From positions 1,054,001 to 1,118,000 of the forward strand of contig ATWD01000001.1 in NCBI GenBank assembly GCA_000421065.1: DNA of 64,000 nt, written 5' to 3'. Position numbers and translations under genes: made by a program. Below are positions 17,911 to 31,379 of this stretch, piece after piece (position 1 is the stretch's first letter; every line of letters begins with the position of its first letter). The DNA is from Acidobacteriaceae bacterium TAA 166 (GTDB lineage: Bacteria; Acidobacteriota; Terriglobia; Terriglobales; Acidobacteriaceae). Under the pieces are notes generated by a model. That model searched no databases and had not been told where the DNA came from. It saw only the letters and a list, made by a program, of their open reading frames with translations.

Positions 17911-17955
17911 CTGCGCTGCCGCGCGGGCCCACTGCGCTCGGCCACCCAACCATTA
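17911..17955. repeat. Dispersed palindromic element, short copy E
   Basis: GCGCTGCCGCGCGGGCCCACTGCGCTCGGCCACCC, the same left block as copies F, G, H and K. It lies between the HNH gene start and the end of the Dabb gene and overlaps the last bases of the latter. Confidence 0.75.
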
Positions 17956-23892: not shown

Positions 23893-24073
23893 AGGAATTG
23901 CATTCCCTGGAGCTAAAGAGGGCGATCAGATCGAGATTCGCATTGCGGGCCGGCGGGAGTTTGCCGTTGATCGCGATATGAGCCGGCAACGTGCGATAGC
24001 GCAGCTGAAGCGGCTACGCCGCCCGTTGCCGACAGGGTTTACCTTCGATCGAAACCTGGCAAATGAGCGATAA
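23893..24073 (+). pseudogene. Truncated antitoxin remnant (AbrB/MazE-type)
   Basis: The plus-strand frame ending at 24073 reads EGDQIEIRIAGRREFAVDRD then RLRRPLPTGFTFDRNLANER, which matches the C-terminal part of AbrB/MazE-type antitoxins. The N-terminal DNA-binding half (usually starting like MRVAKWGNSLAVR) is missing: upstream sequence is the end of the peptidase gene, there is no start codon in frame, and the first coding stretch (CTGGAGCTAAAG) is in another frame. It overlaps the toxin start by 11 bases, the normal arrangement for such operons. Confidence 0.55.
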
Positions 24074-24467
24074 GAGATTCTTCGACACCACGATTCTGAT
24101 CTACACCCTCTCCGAGGGAGATCGGCGCTCGGAGAGGGCGGAAGAACTTTTAGCGGTTGGCGGCTTGATCAGCGTACAGGTGTTGAACGAGTTTGCCGCA
24201 GTGGCACATAGAAAACTCGGGCTTTCGTGGAAGGAGATTCGTGAGGCGCTCGGCGCGATTCGCACTTTATGCGACTCACCGGTGGCCTTAACGACAGAGG
24301 TCCACGAGAAGGGGATCGAGATCGCTGAGCGGTACAAGTATCAGATCTACGATGCATTGACCATAGCGGCGGCGCTCAGTGCGGGGTGTCAGGTGCTGTA
24401 CTCCGAGGACATGCAGGATGGGCAGAGGATCGAGACCTTGACGATCCTGAATCCCTTTACCGTTTGA
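24063..24467 (+). CDS. vapC: PIN-domain toxin (VapC-like)
   Basis: A 134-residue PIN-fold ribonuclease toxin. Acidic active-site residues are visible as FFDTTILIY (Asp8), a central NEFAAVAHRK (Glu), YDALTIAAAL (Asp) and the terminal LYSEDMQDGQ (Glu/Asp). In VapBC pairs the toxin cleaves tRNA or rRNA. Its partner upstream is damaged, so the toxin may be unexpressed, weakly toxic or controlled by a homologous antitoxin elsewhere. The gene ends 128 bases before the LolD-like gene on the opposite strand. Confidence 0.85.
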   Translation: MSDKRFFDTTILIYTLSEGDRRSERAEELLAVGGLISVQVLNEFAAVAHRKLGLSWKEIREALGAIRTLCDSPVALTTEVHEKGIEIAERYKYQIYDALTIAAALSAGCQVLYSEDMQDGQRIETLTILNPFTV

Positions 24468-25400: not shown

Positions 25401-26018
25401 ATGTGGACGGGGATAAGTTGGCCGGGGTTTCTGCTGTTGGTTCTTGCCGCATGGACGGTGGTAGGCGCACTGGGTGTGGGCTTTTCGCTGAAACGCGGGG
25501 AGAGGACGAAGGCCCTGAGGGACCTGGGATGGATCGTCGCGGTCTGGATGATCTATCTGGCGGTGCTGGTTGGGGTCTCTGTAAGCTCGCGACCTCGCTC
25601 TGTGGCGATGGGGCAGGAGCAGTGCTTCGGGAAGCTGTGCCTGACGGCGATTAAGGCCGAGGCGAGGCCGAGCTTCCTGGCACGTCAGGGCGAGCGCGAC
25701 CTTCGCGTCTCGATACGGATGACGAACCACTCCGACAGACGCCTGGAGGATCACGGACTGGAGGCGCACCTCGAGGACTCGCGCGGGCGTCGATGGTACG
25801 AGGTTCCGGGGTTGGGCGGAGTCCGGTTGTCGACGACGGTGGGAGCGGGCGAGTCGATGGTGAGCGCGCCGGTCTTCCGGGTGGCGCCGGATGCGGCCGG
25901 GCTGCGGCTGGTGCTGAGTCATGGACGCAGCGTCACTTACCTTCTGCGGATCGGGGATCGGGACAGCCTGCTGCATGCCCCGGTCTACACTCCGCTCGCG
26001 ATCTCTGAAGAGCCCTAG
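25401..26018 (+). CDS. Membrane-anchored hypothetical protein with an extracytoplasmic beta domain
   Basis: 205 residues: two hydrophobic segments (about 8-28 and 43-62), then a Cys pair (C75, C80, in QEQCFGKLC), then a soluble part with IRMTNHSDRRLEDHGLEAHLEDSRGRRWYEVPG and VFRVAPDAAGLRLVLSHG. The latter resembles DUF4352/TRF-like beta-sandwich domains that report on ligand or stress state, but this is only a resemblance in pattern. The gene diverges from the LolD-like gene with a 37-base gap. Function unknown. Confidence 0.6.
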   Translation: MWTGISWPGFLLLVLAAWTVVGALGVGFSLKRGERTKALRDLGWIVAVWMIYLAVLVGVSVSSRPRSVAMGQEQCFGKLCLTAIKAEARPSFLARQGERDLRVSIRMTNHSDRRLEDHGLEAHLEDSRGRRWYEVPGLGGVRLSTTVGAGESMVSAPVFRVAPDAAGLRLVLSHGRSVTYLLRIGDRDSLLHAPVYTPLAISEEP

Positions 26019-26037: not shown

Positions 26038-26105
26038 GGTGAAAGACAGGCGCTGCCGCGCGGGCCCACTGCACTCGGCCGGCAGGCCATGATCTTTCCT
26101 CCCAA
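26038..26105. repeat. Dispersed palindromic element, short copy G (complete)
   Basis: GAAAGACAGGCGCTGCCG at the left, GCGCGGGCCCACTGCAC in the middle, CGGCAGGCCATGATCTTTC at the right. The ends form an imperfect terminal inverted repeat (GAAAGA...TCTTTC). This copy defines the complete short form of the family. Confidence 0.8.
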
Positions 26106-26361: not shown

Positions 26362-26377
26362 TGGCATGGGGATTGCA
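26362..26377 (+). promoter_or_regulatory. Sigma-54 (RpoN) promoter of the amyloid-like locus
   Basis: TGGCATGGGGATTGCA matches the consensus TGGCAYR-N4-TTGCA, with GG (-24) and GC (-12) exactly 10 bases apart. It lies about 300 bases upstream of the first gene, leaving a long leader. No other equally good promoter was seen in this gap. Confidence 0.7.
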
Positions 26378-26676
26378 TTAGTGCCAGACCGTGTTGTAGG
26401 GTCCCCCATTCGTCGGCGCTGGGCTGAGCGCACGAGGAAGCTGATATTCACCACGAATTAATGCAGTCGGGCTCTTGAGGTCTCCACTCCGGTGAACGAG
26501 CAGAGACGCGCCGCGTTCTGGGGACACATGCAAGCTTTCTTCAAATCTCCTGGGATTTAAATCCGCGACGTCGGCGTGGCTTCCTTGCGTGGTAAGCCTG
26601 CAGGCGCCAAATGGCCACTGTGCGGCATCGCCCGCGCAGGCGGCGGACGTTATCAAACAAGCCGTGGAGGCATTCT

Positions 26677-28722
26677 GTGAAGAACATTGTTACCACTACT
26701 ACTCTCGTTGCAGCCTTAGTCGTCTCTGGACAAGCGTATGGCCAGAGCAAGTCGAACTCGTCGAACAAGAAACAGCAGACCAAGACGCGCGAGCTGCGCG
26801 ACAACCAGATGGATTCGGTGACGGCCGCCGGTGAAGAGAACAGCGCGGTCGCGGCTGCCGGATCCTCGGTGGTCGAGAACAACAGCGGCGCGGTCAGCCT
26901 GAGCGGCAACGCCGGCATGGGCGCTTCGGGCATCAACATCGTCAGCGCTTCGGACTCCGTGGTGGGCAATGGAGCCAACGTGATGGATAACTCCGGCGCC
27001 GTCAACGGCAACAACACCACGACGGTCGGCCAGGGAAATGCGATCACCCAGAGCAGCGGCTCGACAGCATCGCTCGACGGCTACTCGCGTGGAGCGAACG
27101 TTCAGCTGGGCGTAACGGCGAACTCGGACGTGAACACCACCTCGGCGAAGAGCGACAGCTACAACAGCTCCGTGAACGCCTCGAAGACGCATGACCAGAG
27201 CCTGAATGTCGGTCACACGACTTCGGACAGCCTGGCTGCGGACAAGAGCAACAACAAGAGCCAGTCGCTGAACACCAGCGCGAGCAACTCGAACTCACTG
27301 GCGGCGAATGCCTCTTCGTCGAAGTCGCAGAACGAGTCGCTTGGGACCAACAGCTCGGCCGCGCAGAACGCCAATGGATCGCTGTCGGCCAACAAGTCGG
27401 CCGCGCAGGGTTCCAACAGCTCCCTGTCGACGGACAAGTCGGCTGATCAGAGCTCGAACGCGAACCTGTCGACGGGCAAGTCGGCGGCGCAGAGCTCCAA
27501 CAACAACTCGGCGGCCAGCCAGACGGCTTCGCAGGGTTCCAACAGCTCGCTTTCGACCACCGGCTCCTCGGCGAATAACTCCAGCAGCACGCTGGCTGCG
27601 AACGGCAGCAAGTCGAGCAACTCGTCCGTGAACGCGGGCGCGTCCGACCAGCACGCGGGTTCGACGAACTCGACCGGAGCCAGCAACTCGGCCAGCAACA
27701 GCACGGGCACGACGACGGCCGCGGGCAACGGCGTGATCGCCGGTTCCAACGGCTCTGCCAGCAACAACGGCAGCACGGCCAGCAACACGGCGCAGTCCAG
27801 CGGCTCGAGCGCGGACAACTCGTCCGCGTCGAAGGGCGGCGCTGCTCTGAACGCTTCGAAGACCACCTCTGACACCGCGGCGGCGAATGCGAACTCCACG
27901 AACAGCCAGGCGGCGAACGCCAGCGGATCGGCCAGCAAGAACCTCTCGGCCGGCAACTCCAACACCGCGAGCGCGGGACTGAATGCTTCGACGGGCAAGT
28001 CGGCGAACAACGCGAGCTCGCTGGACGCCGCGAAGGGTGAGCAGGCCAGCGGATCGGCCAGCAAGAACAACTCGGCGGCTCAGGGTTCCAACAGCTCGAG
28101 CTTCCTGAACGCCTCGGGCGCGCAGGGATCGAACTCGGCCAGCTCGCTCGATGCTTCGAAGGGTCAGTCCTCGAACTCGGCTAGCTCGCTGAATGCTTCG
28201 GCGGCTGAGTCGAGCAACCAGGCGAACTCGCTGAATGCTTCGGCCTCCAAGTCGAACAACAAGGCGGCTTCGCTGAACACCAGCAACTCGGCAAACGATT
28301 CGCTGAGCGCGAACAAGGCTTCGTCGAACTCGGCGAGCCTCAACACGAGCAGCTCCACCAACGACAGCCTGGCTGCCGCGGACAACCAGAGCGCGAGCCT
28401 GGCGACCAGCGTTGCCAAGTCGAGCTCGGACAACGAGAGCAACCACACCACCGATTCGCTTGAGCTGAGCTACAGCAAGCAGGGTGCGATCGCTTTCGAT
28501 TCCGCCACCGGCAAGTATGTCGCGGTTGACGGATCGTCGGTGAACGCCACCAACAGCTACAGCGTCGCGCTGGCGGGCAATGCCCTTCAGAACGCTGCTG
28601 GCCTGAACATCGTCAGCGCCGCGGGCGGCATGGTTGCCAACGGCGTGAACGTGTTCCACAACTCCGGCAGCATGGTAGGCACGAACCTGGTGCAGACCAA
28701 CAACATCAGCCAGGTCCGCTAA
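26677..28722 (+). CDS. Secreted Ser/Asn/Ala-rich repeat protein, FapC-like amyloid candidate
   Basis: 681 residues from a GTG start with GTGGAGG six bases before it. A signal peptide (VKNIVTTTTLVAALVVSGQAYGQ) is followed by LRDNQMDSVTAAG at 40-52. A Gly/Asn-rich module (residues 73-125, ASGINIVSASDSVVGNGANV) recurs at the C-terminus (627-681, AAGLNIVSAAGGMVANGVNV). Between them some 500 residues consist almost wholly of Ser, Asn, Ala, Lys, Gly, Thr and Gln, in short repeats like GSNSSLSTDKSA and SSLNASAAES. FapC of Pseudomonas has such G-V-N-V-A-type modules joined by variable linkers; the resemblance is in pattern and gene context. There are no cysteines. First gene of a four-gene locus; probably the major fibre subunit. 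Confidence 0.72.
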   Translation: MKNIVTTTTLVAALVVSGQAYGQSKSNSSNKKQQTKTRELRDNQMDSVTAAGEENSAVAAAGSSVVENNSGAVSLSGNAGMGASGINIVSASDSVVGNGANVMDNSGAVNGNNTTTVGQGNAITQSSGSTASLDGYSRGANVQLGVTANSDVNTTSAKSDSYNSSVNASKTHDQSLNVGHTTSDSLAADKSNNKSQSLNTSASNSNSLAANASSSKSQNESLGTNSSAAQNANGSLSANKSAAQGSNSSLSTDKSADQSSNANLSTGKSAAQSSNNNSAASQTASQGSNSSLSTTGSSANNSSSTLAANGSKSSNSSVNAGASDQHAGSTNSTGASNSASNSTGTTTAAGNGVIAGSNGSASNNGSTASNTAQSSGSSADNSSASKGGAALNASKTTSDTAAANANSTNSQAANASGSASKNLSAGNSNTASAGLNASTGKSANNASSLDAAKGEQASGSASKNNSAAQGSNSSSFLNASGAQGSNSASSLDASKGQSSNSASSLNASAAESSNQANSLNASASKSNNKAASLNTSNSANDSLSANKASSNSASLNTSSSTNDSLAAADNQSASLATSVAKSSSDNESNHTTDSLELSYSKQGAIAFDSATGKYVAVDGSSVNATNSYSVALAGNALQNAAGLNIVSAAGGMVANGVNVFHNSGSMVGTNLVQTNNISQVR

Positions 28723-28821
28723 CCAGCCCGCTAAAAAGGCGAACGGCGCGGGTGGAGTCCGGCGGTTGGAGGCCGGATTTCATCCGCAGTCCGCTCGCTT
28801 CACTGGATTCAAGGAGTATGT

Positions 28822-29289
28822 ATGCGACGAATTCTCGTGATAGCGGCTGTGGCTCTGCTGGGTTCGGCAGGGATGGCTCAGGCCGGCGCGCAGGCTCAGA
28901 CAAGCCCGCAGGCTCCGGCCAAGGCCAAGGCCCCGATTCAGGCTCAGGCGAAGCCCTTGAGTGACGATGCGATGGACAACGTAACAGCCGGCGGTGTTCA
29001 GGCCGGCGTTGACAATGGCGTCGTTCACTTCCAGGGGCAGAGCCAGACTCCGAACGGTCCGGTCTCGGCCAAGGGCTCGATGTCGTTTATGAACAGTCCC
29101 ATCGGGAGTGTCAACAACACCACCACGACGGGAACGTTGAACCTGGGCGGCAACGCGCAGCAGAATCTGAGCTCGCTGGTCAATATCAACGCTGTGAACT
29201 CAACCATCAGCGTGCTGTTGAACCTTAACGTCAACATCAACTCGACTGTGGGAACCCTGACGCAGTCGAATCTGGCGAGAAGGCCGTAA
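28822..29289 (+). CDS. Small secreted Asn-rich protein, FapB-like minor subunit candidate
   Basis: 155 residues with a signal peptide (MRRILVIAAVALLGSAGMAQA), an Ala/Gln/Pro spacer, then LSDDAMDNVTAGG at 46-58, which looks like a double-glycine leader end and parallels LRDNQMDSVTAAG in the preceding protein. The rest is beta-prone and Asn-rich: GTLNLGGNAQQNLSSLVNI, NAVNSTISVLLNLNVNINS. Such sequences suit a fibre nucleator or minor subunit. AAGGAG precedes the ATG. The stop codon is directly followed by the ATG of the C39 peptidase gene with no gap. Confidence 0.68.
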   Translation: MRRILVIAAVALLGSAGMAQAGAQAQTSPQAPAKAKAPIQAQAKPLSDDAMDNVTAGGVQAGVDNGVVHFQGQSQTPNGPVSAKGSMSFMNSPIGSVNNTTTTGTLNLGGNAQQNLSSLVNINAVNSTISVLLNLNVNINSTVGTLTQSNLARRP

Positions 29290-29976
29290 ATGCTTTGCAC
29301 TGCATTTCGGTCACGACTTACCTCAAGGGCGCTCGTGCTGGTGATGGCGAGCGCTCCTCTCTTCCCTTCCACTCTGCTGGCGCAGAGCACGGAGGATGGT
29401 CACAAGAATGTTCGCAGCCTCGAGGAGATTCGCGGCGAGGGCGTGGTTCGCCAGCGCTGGGACATGAGCTGCGGGGCGGCTGCTCTGAGCACGCTGCTCA
29501 CCTATGAGTTCAAGGACAACACTCCAGAGACGGCGATCGTGGTCTGGATTCTGCATCGGGTCGATCCGGTGAAAGTGCATGCTCGCGGAGGGTTTTCGCT
29601 GCTCGACCTGAAGCACTTCGCACAGGCCCGCGGATATCGCGCCGAGGGCTTTACCGGGATGTCCATTCAAGAGCTGGCGTCGCAGAAGACGGCGGTGATC
29701 GTACCGATCCGGTTGAAGGGCTTTGACCACTTCATCGTGGTGCGGCAGATTGTGGAGGGCCGCGTGATCGTGGCCGATCCTGGGTTCGGCAACCTGACCA
29801 TGCGTGTCGACCGGTTTCAGCAGTTGTGGAAGGAAGGCATCGTCTTCGTCGTGCATCCGCCGACGGATCTGATGCTGACGGAGAAGCGCCCCACGGTCGC
29901 ATCGCGCACGATTCCGGACGCGACCATCATTCAACGCGAGATTGGCGTAGCCATTCCGCCTAACTATCTCTACTGA
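29290..29976 (+). CDS. Stand-alone periplasmic C39-family cysteine peptidase, FapD-like
   Basis: 228 residues. A hydrophobic export signal at about 13-31 (ends STLLAQS) is followed by a papain-like C39 domain: Gln55 (RQRWDMSCG), catalytic Cys61 in SCGAAALSTLL, His147 in GFDHFIVV and Asp163 in VADPGFGN. C39 peptidases remove double-glycine leaders; normally they are fused to an ABC exporter, but here the domain stands alone and is exported, as FapD is. The start codon abuts the stop of the preceding gene. The likely targets are the two upstream secreted proteins with leader-like motifs. Confidence is high for the fold, moderate for the role. Confidence 0.82.
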   Translation: MLCTAFRSRLTSRALVLVMASAPLFPSTLLAQSTEDGHKNVRSLEEIRGEGVVRQRWDMSCGAAALSTLLTYEFKDNTPETAIVVWILHRVDPVKVHARGGFSLLDLKHFAQARGYRAEGFTGMSIQELASQKTAVIVPIRLKGFDHFIVVRQIVEGRVIVADPGFGNLTMRVDRFQQLWKEGIVFVVHPPTDLMLTEKRPTVASRTIPDATIIQREIGVAIPPNYLY

Positions 29977-29988
29977 AATTCGACGGCT

Positions 29989-30029
29989 TCGTTTTACTGA
30001 TTTTCAGCAGTCTCGTTTTACTGATTTTC
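29989..30029. repeat. 17-bp direct repeat between the C39 and beta-barrel genes
   Basis: TCGTTTTACTGATTTTC occurs at 29989-30005 and again at 30013-30029, separated by 7 bases, in the 80-base gap between the two genes. Function unknown. Confidence 0.7.
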
Positions 30030-30056
30030 TTGGTCTTCTCTGGAAAGGCATGATCC

Positions 30057-31379
30057 ATGCAGTTATCCCTGTTGAGAACGTATGGCACCGCATTGATCGG
30101 CTGGGCCCTGGTTGTTCCGGTCGCGAACCTGCAAGCTCAGGTCCCCGCAACGCAGCAGCAGCAACCTCCTCAGGCGCAGAACAGGCAGCCGACGGGAGGC
30201 ATGACCGCAGAGCAGCAGGCGTCTCTTCTGCAGGCTGTGAACCAACGCCTGAACGATAGTCTTCGCGAGCGTGACGCGATCATCCGCAATCTGCTGGAGA
30301 GGGTCGCCGAGCTGGAGTGGCGCGTGAACGGCGGCCTGACGACGAAGCCCGCGGAGATGTCGGCGGCGAAGCCGATCTCGGCGAGCGTTCCGGCTCCTGC
30401 CGCGGTGAACTCCGTGGTGGCGAACTCGGGCTATGACGTCGAGGAGCGGCAGGCGAGCCAGGCTCTCGATCAACAGCTGATTGTGCGCGGAGGTCTTTTG
30501 CTGCCGAGCGGCACGGTGGAGCTGGATAACAACACGTCGTACTTCAGCACCAGCTCGGATCATTTGAACGTGGATGGATTCGCTCTGCTTCCGGTGCTGG
30601 TGGTGGGGGATATCACCTCGGAGCGCGTGCGCAAGGATCTTCTGCTACCGATGTTTTCGGCGCGGCTGGGACTTCCGCACAAGCTTCAGTTCGACACTTA
30701 TATTCCTTATGGATATCAGCTGCAGCGCACGGTGGATGCGACCAACAAAGAGACTTCGGAGAGCACCTTCGGGCTAGGAGACATCACCTTGGGACTCTCC
30801 CGGCAGCTGACGCTGGAGCGCGGGAAGGTTCCCGACCTTCTGGCGAATGTGCGGTTCAAGACGACGACGGGCGTGGACAGCTTCAACCTGAACAGCAGCC
30901 AGACTGCACTGGGGACCGGGTTCTACGCGGTGCAGGGGAACCTGACCGCGGCGAAGTCGAACGACCCGGTGGTGTTCTTCGGCAACCTATCGTACACGGC
31001 GAACCTGAATGGGTCGCACACGGTTCCGGTCAGCGATCCCAACACGGGCGCGACGACGACGATGGTGGGTCACTTCAAGCCGGGCGACTCGGTCGGCTTC
31101 CAGATCGGATCGATCCTGTCGCTGAATCCGGAGACGTCGATGACGATTGGATGGGACCAGCGGTTCACGCGATCGACGACGCTGAACAACCAGGTAATTC
31201 CGGCGTCGTACCTGGTGGAGGGATCGCTGCGGCTGGGAGCTTCGTATCTTTACGCTCCGGGAAAGACGATCGACCTGAGCTTCGGCGTGGGTCTGACGCC
31301 GGATACGCCGAACCTGCAGTTCTCGATTGGGTTGCCGATTCGGCGAGCTCTCTGGAAGCCGAAGAGCGGGGTTCATTGA
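30057..31379 (+). CDS. Outer-membrane beta-barrel with N-terminal coiled coil, FapF-like secretion pore
   Basis: 440 residues. Signal peptide about 1-28 (GWALVVPVANLQAQ), a Gln/Pro-rich spacer, a predicted coiled coil at about 50-92 (QASLLQAVNQRLND...LLERVAELEWRV), a low-complexity linker, and from about 145 a beta-barrel with alternating amphipathic strands of the 'MetA-pathway / porin' type, ending LQFSIGLPIRRALW. FapF of Pseudomonas is a trimeric pore built the same way: signal, coiled coil, 12-strand barrel. It should export the amyloid-like subunits through the outer membrane. GGAAAGG lies 8 bases before the ATG. It is the last gene of the locus. Confidence 0.8.
   Translation: MQLSLLRTYGTALIGWALVVPVANLQAQVPATQQQQPPQAQNRQPTGGMTAEQQASLLQAVNQRLNDSLRERDAIIRNLLERVAELEWRVNGGLTTKPAEMSAAKPISASVPAPAAVNSVVANSGYDVEERQASQALDQQLIVRGGLLLPSGTVELDNNTSYFSTSSDHLNVDGFALLPVLVVGDITSERVRKDLLLPMFSARLGLPHKLQFDTYIPYGYQLQRTVDATNKETSESTFGLGDITLGLSRQLTLERGKVPDLLANVRFKTTTGVDSFNLNSSQTALGTGFYAVQGNLTAAKSNDPVVFFGNLSYTANLNGSHTVPVSDPNTGATTTMVGHFKPGDSVGFQIGSILSLNPETSMTIGWDQRFTRSTTLNNQVIPASYLVEGSLRLGASYLYAPGKTIDLSFGVGLTPDTPNLQFSIGLPIRRALWKPKSGVH

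Follow-up and report, generated by a model that had tools for sequence, protein, structure and literature searches.

A conserved Fap-like secretion locus of acidobacteria with a candidate C39 leader on both predicted secreted subunits

The closest described relatives of the locus reported here are the Fap system of Pseudomonas (fapABCDEF) and the Fil system of Acinetobacter (filABCDEF), the latter annotated as a putative pilus system. FapF is a plugged 12-strand barrel with an N-terminal coiled coil (PMC5557850), FapC is built of repeats joined by variable linkers (PMC12392863), and FapD is an essential protein whose cysteine is required; what it cuts had not been settled in 2017, when FapE was the leading candidate and FapF, perhaps at a GG ahead of the barrel, a second possibility, and canonical C39 sequences were described as missing from Fap proteins (PMC5557850). 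The FapD substrate was still to be determined in a 2018 review (PMC6173800), and a 2025 review describes FapD as thought to process FapE and FapF (PMC12822426). A 2013 survey placed Fap systems in Proteobacteria only (PMC3792158); since the 2018 review already lists five more phyla, not named in its text, with co-located homologues of fapD and fapF, the occurrence of this pair beyond Proteobacteria is in itself no novelty (PMC6173800). Among open-licence papers, no acidobacterial Fap case was found. Here, a four-gene locus is described from a 64 kb stretch of the genome of Acidobacteriaceae bacterium TAA 166 (contig ATWD01000001.1, positions 1,054,001 to 1,118,000), referred to below as the window.

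The four open reading frames (ORFs) all lie on the positive strand within 26362..31379 of the window and encode a fibre-like protein (ORF1), a small protein (ORF2), a C39 peptidase (ORF3) and an outer-membrane barrel (ORF4) (Table 1). An original prediction, made from the letters alone, had proposed four same-strand genes with these products at this place, and it is borne out in the window and beyond, the gene order recurring in 28 of 28 further loci with a whole barrel. Judged by sequence comparison, the locus is genuine, conserved and of a Fap-like secretion type; it is akin to Fap and Fil but belongs to neither in the strict sense, and it fits the broad class in which a predicted periplasmic C39 peptidase and a FapF-like barrel are encoded with repeat proteins. 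Strict Fap membership is not supported, because the scores stay below the curated cut-offs and the genome yielded no FapE gene. New here is a leader common to ORF1 and ORF2, which was absent from the original prediction, as were the end repeats and the linker period of ORF1.

Behind their signal peptides, which were assigned by eye, both secreted subunits carry one motif, LRDNQMDSVTAA followed by GE in ORF1 and LSDDAMDNVTAG followed by GV in ORF2. The double-glycine leader consensus of C39 substrates has Leu at -12, Leu or Met at -7, Ile or Val at -4, Gly or Ala at -2 and Gly, Ala or Ser at -1. Both subunits match this register in all 29 loci (the 28 and the window), with Leu at -12, Met or Leu at -7, Val, Ile or Leu at -4 and Ala at -2; 3 of the 56 leaders outside the window (the fibre of L097, the small subunits of L078 and L090) were called by a looser reading or a wider search window. 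Of 59 distinct leaders, 4 have Leu at -4. Conservation is highest at -12, -10, -8 to -6 and -4 to -1, amid variable sequence. The regular expression that picked the rows fixed -12, -7, -6, -4, -3, -2 and -1 wholly or partly and left Asp-10 and Gln-8 free; Asp-10 is 100% conserved in the leaders and Gln-8 100% conserved in the fibre leaders. When a four-repeat fibre was used as query, 39 matches were returned, 13 of them remote (P0269-P0281, E 6e-8 to 9e-4, 25-62% identity over 9-100% of the query), and the leader is kept in the eight of these inspected, e.g., LSDEQLDVITAG and LSADQLGWVTAG, one having Ala at -3; for P0273, a plasmid search returned no match. At the DNA level, the strict leader pattern ATGGAYNNNGTNWCNGCNG has two matches in the 6.14 Mb genome, both at the locus, and none in the reversed control; a looser pattern has four, two of them at the locus, and is noisy, with a match in 60 of 62 genomes of the genus. 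Taken at the sequence level, the leader-bearing subunits are likely substrates of the C39 peptidase encoded beside them.

Table 1. Features of the locus, in window coordinates (1-based, 5' to 3').
Feature	Position	Strand	Evidence or measure
-24/-12 (sigma-54-type) promoter-like site TGGCATGGGGATTGCA	26362..26377	+	read in sequence; regular expression
ORF1, fibre-like subunit, 681 aa: signal peptide by eye, leader, two end repeats, Ser/Asn/Ala linker	26677..28722	+	
Leader LRDNQMDSVTAA of ORF1, residues 40-51, predicted C39 recognition site	26794..26829	+	
N-terminal Fap-like repeat of ORF1, residues 68-106	26878..26994	+	
Linker of ORF1, residues 129-598, Ser/Asn/Ala-rich, 14-residue period	27061..28470	+	autocorrelation
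C-terminal Fap-like repeat of ORF1, residues 625-663	28549..28665	+	
ORF2, small subunit, 155 aa, FapB-like C-terminal part	28822..29289	+	
Leader LSDDAMDNVTAG of ORF2, residues 46-57, predicted C39 recognition site	28957..28992	+	
Part of ORF2 aligned with FapB-like small proteins	29122..29223	+	hhalign P 2e-4, probability 47%
ORF3, FapD/FilB-type stand-alone C39 peptidase; Gln55, Cys61, His147, Asp163	29290..29976	+	
ORF4, FapF-like outer-membrane barrel, 440 aa	30057..31379	+	
Predicted coiled-coil helix of ORF4, residues 51-90	30207..30326	+	AlphaFold2 model, low confidence
Invariant Asn-Gly-Gly ending the ORF4 helix, possible second C39 site	30327..30335	+	
Plug-like helix ahead of the barrel, ORF4 residues 128-143	30438..30485	+	AlphaFold2 model, low confidence
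Beta-barrel of ORF4, residues 153-431	30513..31349	+	AlphaFold2 model (low confidence), profile search, Foldseek

The peptidase and the barrel tie the locus to the described systems. ORF3, which begins directly past the ORF2 stop (29289/29290), matches Pfam C39 (E 3.6e-16) and the NCBIfam models FilB (118 bits, cut-off 475) and FapD (NF058616; 99 bits, cut-off 330), bearing out a stand-alone C39 peptidase related to FapD and slightly closer to FilB; its periplasmic location is predicted from a signal peptide judged by eye. Gln55, Cys61, His147 and Asp163, which we take to be catalytic, are invariant in 16 rows; ORF3 also matches the PCAT peptidase 6mpz (E 7.4e-7) and shares 28-37% identity over 145-170 residues with eight proteobacterial relatives. 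ORF4 scores 91.4 bits with NCBIfam FapF (cut-off 700) and 56.7 bits with FilC (cut-off 630). A phmmer search of the PDB with ORF4 finds FapF at E 4.6e-19, and a 17-row barrel profile finds it at E 1.2e-26, as the sole molecule within E 0.1. The AlphaFold2 model of ORF4 is of low confidence (pLDDT 56) and places two helices ahead of the strands, an order like that of the FapF plan (PMC5557850); a Foldseek search with it ranks FapF first to 18th (best E 3.9e-16) and the COG4313 channel 4rl8 19th. The Asn-Gly-Gly (NGG) is invariant in 17 of 17 barrel rows, and the stretch after it is variable. Both sequence and the fold of this low-confidence model are in keeping with the coiled-coil barrel related to FapF that had been proposed.

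The two subunits are more remote from known families. The start of ORF1 is most likely the GTG at 26677, not the ATG at 26611, with a GGAGG at 26666-26670, six bases upstream; the protein is, as had been claimed, signal-peptide-bearing and rich in Ser, Asn and Ala (25.8% Ser, 17.5% Ala and 14.9% Asn past the leader), and no Pfam or NCBIfam family matches it up to E 1. One 39-residue repeat stands at either end of the variable linker. Repeats of this type show remote similarity to Fap-type repeats over 21 columns (hhalign P 2.6e-5; P 3.6e-5 in an earlier run with 15 repeats), with a score of 23.6 against a maximum of 16.3 in 200 column shuffles (0/200 as high). The linker contains 42-bp tandem units, with Leu at regular spots within the 14-residue period, and is poor in hydrophobic residues; its autocorrelation at lag 14 is 1.87 against a largest value of 1.45 in 300 shuffles (residues 151-600). 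A fibre profile found nothing below E 0.2 in the PDB. As for ORF2, its proposed role as the FapB counterpart is favoured by the remote FapB-like similarity of its C-terminal part in hhalign, but NCBIfam FapB gives no match, and ORF2 carries a leader of the kind seen in some FapE-like proteins.

The nearest named relatives, among the best 120 matches listed per protein search, belong to Edaphobacter, Tunturiibacter and Granulicella. Of 396 genomes drawn from the phylum, 16 hold the barrel (14 of 22 from the same genus, one from the same family and one, G196, from a distant family). The G196 barrel (L051) has no coiled coil by eye, and C39 is absent among same-strand ORFs of at least 90 aa in the 9 kb stretch that holds it. 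Of the 62 genus genomes, 29 have a barrel match: in 27 the barrel is whole, two of these matches containing a single TAA, while in G036 it is truncated and in G061 broken. A C39 profile (E <= 1e-10) finds exactly those 27 whole-barrel genomes and none of the other 35, which comprise two with barrel remnants and 33 with neither gene. Thirty places were compared, including 28 whole-barrel loci, 27 of them from 26 genus genomes and one from G130 of the family; the 14 named loci fall within the 28, and with the window they make the 29 loci counted here. The order fibre, small subunit, C39, barrel is kept in 28 of 28, which answers, for the genus and one genome of its family, the gene-order survey that the original prediction had proposed as a check; the fibre gene of L083 is split over two frames. 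Decayed copies were seen in G036 (L095, a truncated barrel on its own) and G061 (L096, a broken barrel with fibre fragments), with C39 absent from both at E <= 1e-10.

Upstream of the fibre gene, the promoter-like site was also sought with the regular expression TGG[CT]A[CT]N5TTGC[AT], composed after the first sites had been seen. In the window it matches once, on the forward strand only. Of the 29 loci (window included), 16 have the site some 315-380 bp ahead of the start of the fibre gene, with a single match per locus and none on the reverse strand; the fibre starts behind these distances are script guesses. VpsR-type activators do not track the locus, with weak matches in 20 of 62 genus genomes (best E 2.3e-6): 10 of the 27 whole-barrel genomes, both remnant genomes and 8 of the 33 without barrel. 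A VpsR-type sigma-54 activator adjoins the FapF-like barrel in L051 and also adjoins locus L049 of Photobacterium sp. DA100.

Set beside the Pseudomonas Fap system, the acidobacterial locus shares a FapF-like barrel for which a coiled coil and a plug helix are predicted, a FapD-like C39 peptidase, a large repeat protein with variable linkers and a small FapB-like subunit, but differs in its order (fibre, small subunit, D, F), in having a leader on both subunits and in missing the curated Fap cut-offs. Its fibre has a long Ser/Asn/Ala linker between two 39-residue repeats, compared with three repeats in Fap, and one Granulicella fibre has four repeats and no long linker. With Acinetobacter Fil the locus shares a FilB-type C39 peptidase and a FilC-type barrel; FilA has a somewhat similar stretch past its signal peptide, MDDAALSAATGQ, which is not significant by score or profile. 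Unlike Fil, the acidobacterial locus has no FilA-, FilE- or FilF-like genes (the NCBIfam FilA model has no match in it), and the FilB and FilC cut-offs are missed (118/475 and 56.7/630 bits). In one Acinetobacter baumannii record (L025), the frame of the FilB-type C39 peptidase is broken into two pieces.

Fap-like genes on plasmid records of Cupriavidus, Photobacterium, Polymorphobacter, Croceicoccus and Indioceanicola also include a C39 peptidase, repeat proteins and a FapF-like barrel; these stand together in a row in Cupriavidus, Polymorphobacter and Croceicoccus and are separated by a few kb in Photobacterium and by about 24 kb in Indioceanicola. Several of their FapE-like and FapB-like proteins carry double-glycine motifs; unlike the acidobacterial locus, they have a separate FapE-like gene and their leaders end mostly in RGG rather than TA(A/G). 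Two Cupriavidus FapF-like barrels (L018 and L048) hold LARKRGG, a possible C39 site, in the linker past the coiled coil. The C39 domains of bacteriocin exporters (PCAT, 6mpz, 4ry2) share the peptidase fold, catalytic residues and leader register, but ORF3 is stand-alone and predicted periplasmic, lacks an ABC transporter, and would act on large Sec-type proteins. COG4313/Phenol_MetA_deg channels (4rl8) belong to the same barrel superfamily, are weaker by fold and are absent from the 17-row profile search of the PDB. In trees of the barrel and of C39, the acidobacterial proteins form one clade, to which the trees, with their long branches, assign no position among Fap, Fil and plasmid loci.

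The original prediction had left a choice between a reduced and an independently evolved Fap version. Homology of the barrel and C39 to FapF and FapD speaks against independent origin, which was rejected on this ground, and upholds the Fap link as homology. The absence of FapA and FapE had also been claimed. For FapE, the model finds no credible match in the genome; as for FapA, none was seen in the locus, and no Pfam family matches the ORF upstream of it (25401-26018) at E 0.001 or better, a search with the FapA model not having been made.

These comparisons make it probable that the locus is a Fap-like machine in which the C39 peptidase cuts the leader off both subunits, the barrel exports them and a surface fibre is built. 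In the mechanism that we infer, transcription of the four genes likely begins at the -24/-12 site, by RNA polymerase carrying sigma-54, and Sec, judging by signal peptides assigned by eye, likely carries all four products out of the cytoplasm. The C39 peptidase would recognise the leader through Leu at -12, Met or Leu at -7 and Val at -4 and cut after -1, and the barrel, with its predicted coiled coil and plug helix, would let the unfolded subunits cross the outer membrane. Outside, the large subunit, with its conserved end repeats and variable linker, would assemble, a process likely started by the small FapB-like subunit; amyloid is the favoured candidate for the state of assembled ORF1.

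Several results weigh against this account. The scores of ORF3 and ORF4 lie far under the FapD and FapF equivalog cut-offs (99/330 and 91.4/700 bits), where Aeromonas FapD and FapF likewise fall short (249/330 and 371/700 bits). The NCBIfam FapC and FapB models (NF058558, NF058557) have no match in the locus up to E 1, the fold predicted for a fibre relative (pLDDT 56) matches nothing in the PDB at E <= 0.001, FapC included, and the best match of the FapE model NF058559 lies outside the locus at E 0.62. The leader has Ala, not Gly, at -2, and in single-sequence shuffles of the window leaders the canonical score reaches p 0.013 for ORF2 and 0.07 for ORF1. Also counted against it are the weak results of the leader score and profile among proteobacterial proteins, given below. 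Peptides from Pseudomonas suggest that FapB and FapC are unprocessed and FapE processed (PMC5557850). Finally, 13 of the 29 loci have no promoter match upstream of the fibre gene, leaving the sigma-54-type promoter of the original prediction in place for the 16 loci that include the window, not for these 13.

Whether the product is amyloid is where the strongest alternative arises, namely that what the same machine exports is not amyloid but an adhesin or a pilus-like matrix protein, as annotated for Acinetobacter Fil, with the linker a flexible stalk. The slightly better C39 match to FilB than to FapD (118 vs 99 bits), the remoteness of the Fap likeness of the end repeats, the lack of a FapC match for the fibre-relative model and the few hydrophobic residues in the linker all fit such a product; the barrel is nearer FapF than FilC (91 vs 57 bits), however, and variable linkers between repeats are the FapC plan (PMC12392863), leaving this alternative unlikely, though with appreciable weight. 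Somewhat less credit is due to the idea that the leader is a docking tag for the coiled coil of the barrel and that C39 cuts the barrel linker at the Asn-Gly-Gly instead, opening or closing the pore. That NGG is invariant in 17 of 17 barrels right before the variable linker, together with the suggested FapD cut in FapF at a GG (PMC5557850), favours it, but the NGG site has Leu at -8 and none at -7, and the leader of either subunit fits the canonical C39 register in all 29 loci. An uptake channel of the COG4313 type for hydrophobic compounds, with the other genes unrelated neighbours, would account for the Pfam Phenol_MetA_deg match of ORF4 (E 5.5e-6) and for 4rl8 as next fold match; FapF stands above 4rl8 by fold and alone by sequence, the C39 presence pattern is the same as that of the barrel, and with the four-gene order kept in 28 of 28 loci this very improbable explanation was rejected.

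The leader also bears on FapD-type enzymes in general. Motifs of this kind occur outside acidobacteria in FapE-like and FapB-like proteins (LTDDEMSSLRGG, MTKSEMSAIRGG, ITDYELATMRGG, LSEEVLARQRGG and LADGELAHLRGR), labels that were given mostly by gene position; NCBIfam FapE backs the label in Aeromonas (E 2.3e-12) and, weakly, in Photobacterium DA100 (E 0.0053, residues 17-67, motif included), and gives no support for the Croceicoccus FapE-like protein. A leader score with canonical weights, written after the sequences had been seen, is enriched in nine FapE-like proteins (Fisher p 3e-5), among which two pairs come from one genus each and are not independent, and is not enriched in seven FapD (0.86), eight FapC-like (0.94) or seven FapB-like proteins (0.12). 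Aligned unguided, the ORF2 leader falls on the leader region of FapE-like proteins (hhalign P 2.6e-3, probability 12%). Such likenesses are suggestive of a leader link between acidobacteria and proteobacterial FapE. Less readily granted, at somewhat short of an even chance, is the wider proposal that FapD-type enzymes are periplasmic double-glycine leader peptidases, and that subunits are earmarked for cutting and FapF-type export by a bacteriocin-style leader that follows a Sec signal peptide, in Fap, Fil and acidobacterial systems. The top-scoring site is RG(G/R) in 6 of the 9 FapE-like proteins and another site in 3, the FilA site goes unrecognised by the canonical score (p 0.72), and a leader profile built from acidobacterial sequences is weak on proteobacterial leaders (p 0.046 for FapE-like, 0.23 for FapB-like, 0.17 for FilA; controls, four FapD p 0.99 and six FapC-like 0.21).

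Around the locus, an interspersed repeat with the core TGCCGCGCGGGCCCACTG has exact positive-strand copies at 17917, 24542, 26054 and 31622 of the window, those at 26054 and 31622 flanking the four genes on both sides; the genome holds 102 exact copies (63 forward, 39 reverse) and the reversed control none. A PIN-domain protein (E 9e-13) is encoded at 24063-24467.

Should the wider proposal be true, the tag on the acidobacterial fibre subunit itself would offer a direct way to find what FapD recognises. Because it is short, conserved in both subunits of 29 loci and, as a strict pattern, absent elsewhere in the genome, this candidate recognition sequence is testable by one protease assay. Fap-like matrix building, with its subunits identified, would also extend to a genus of acidobacteria.

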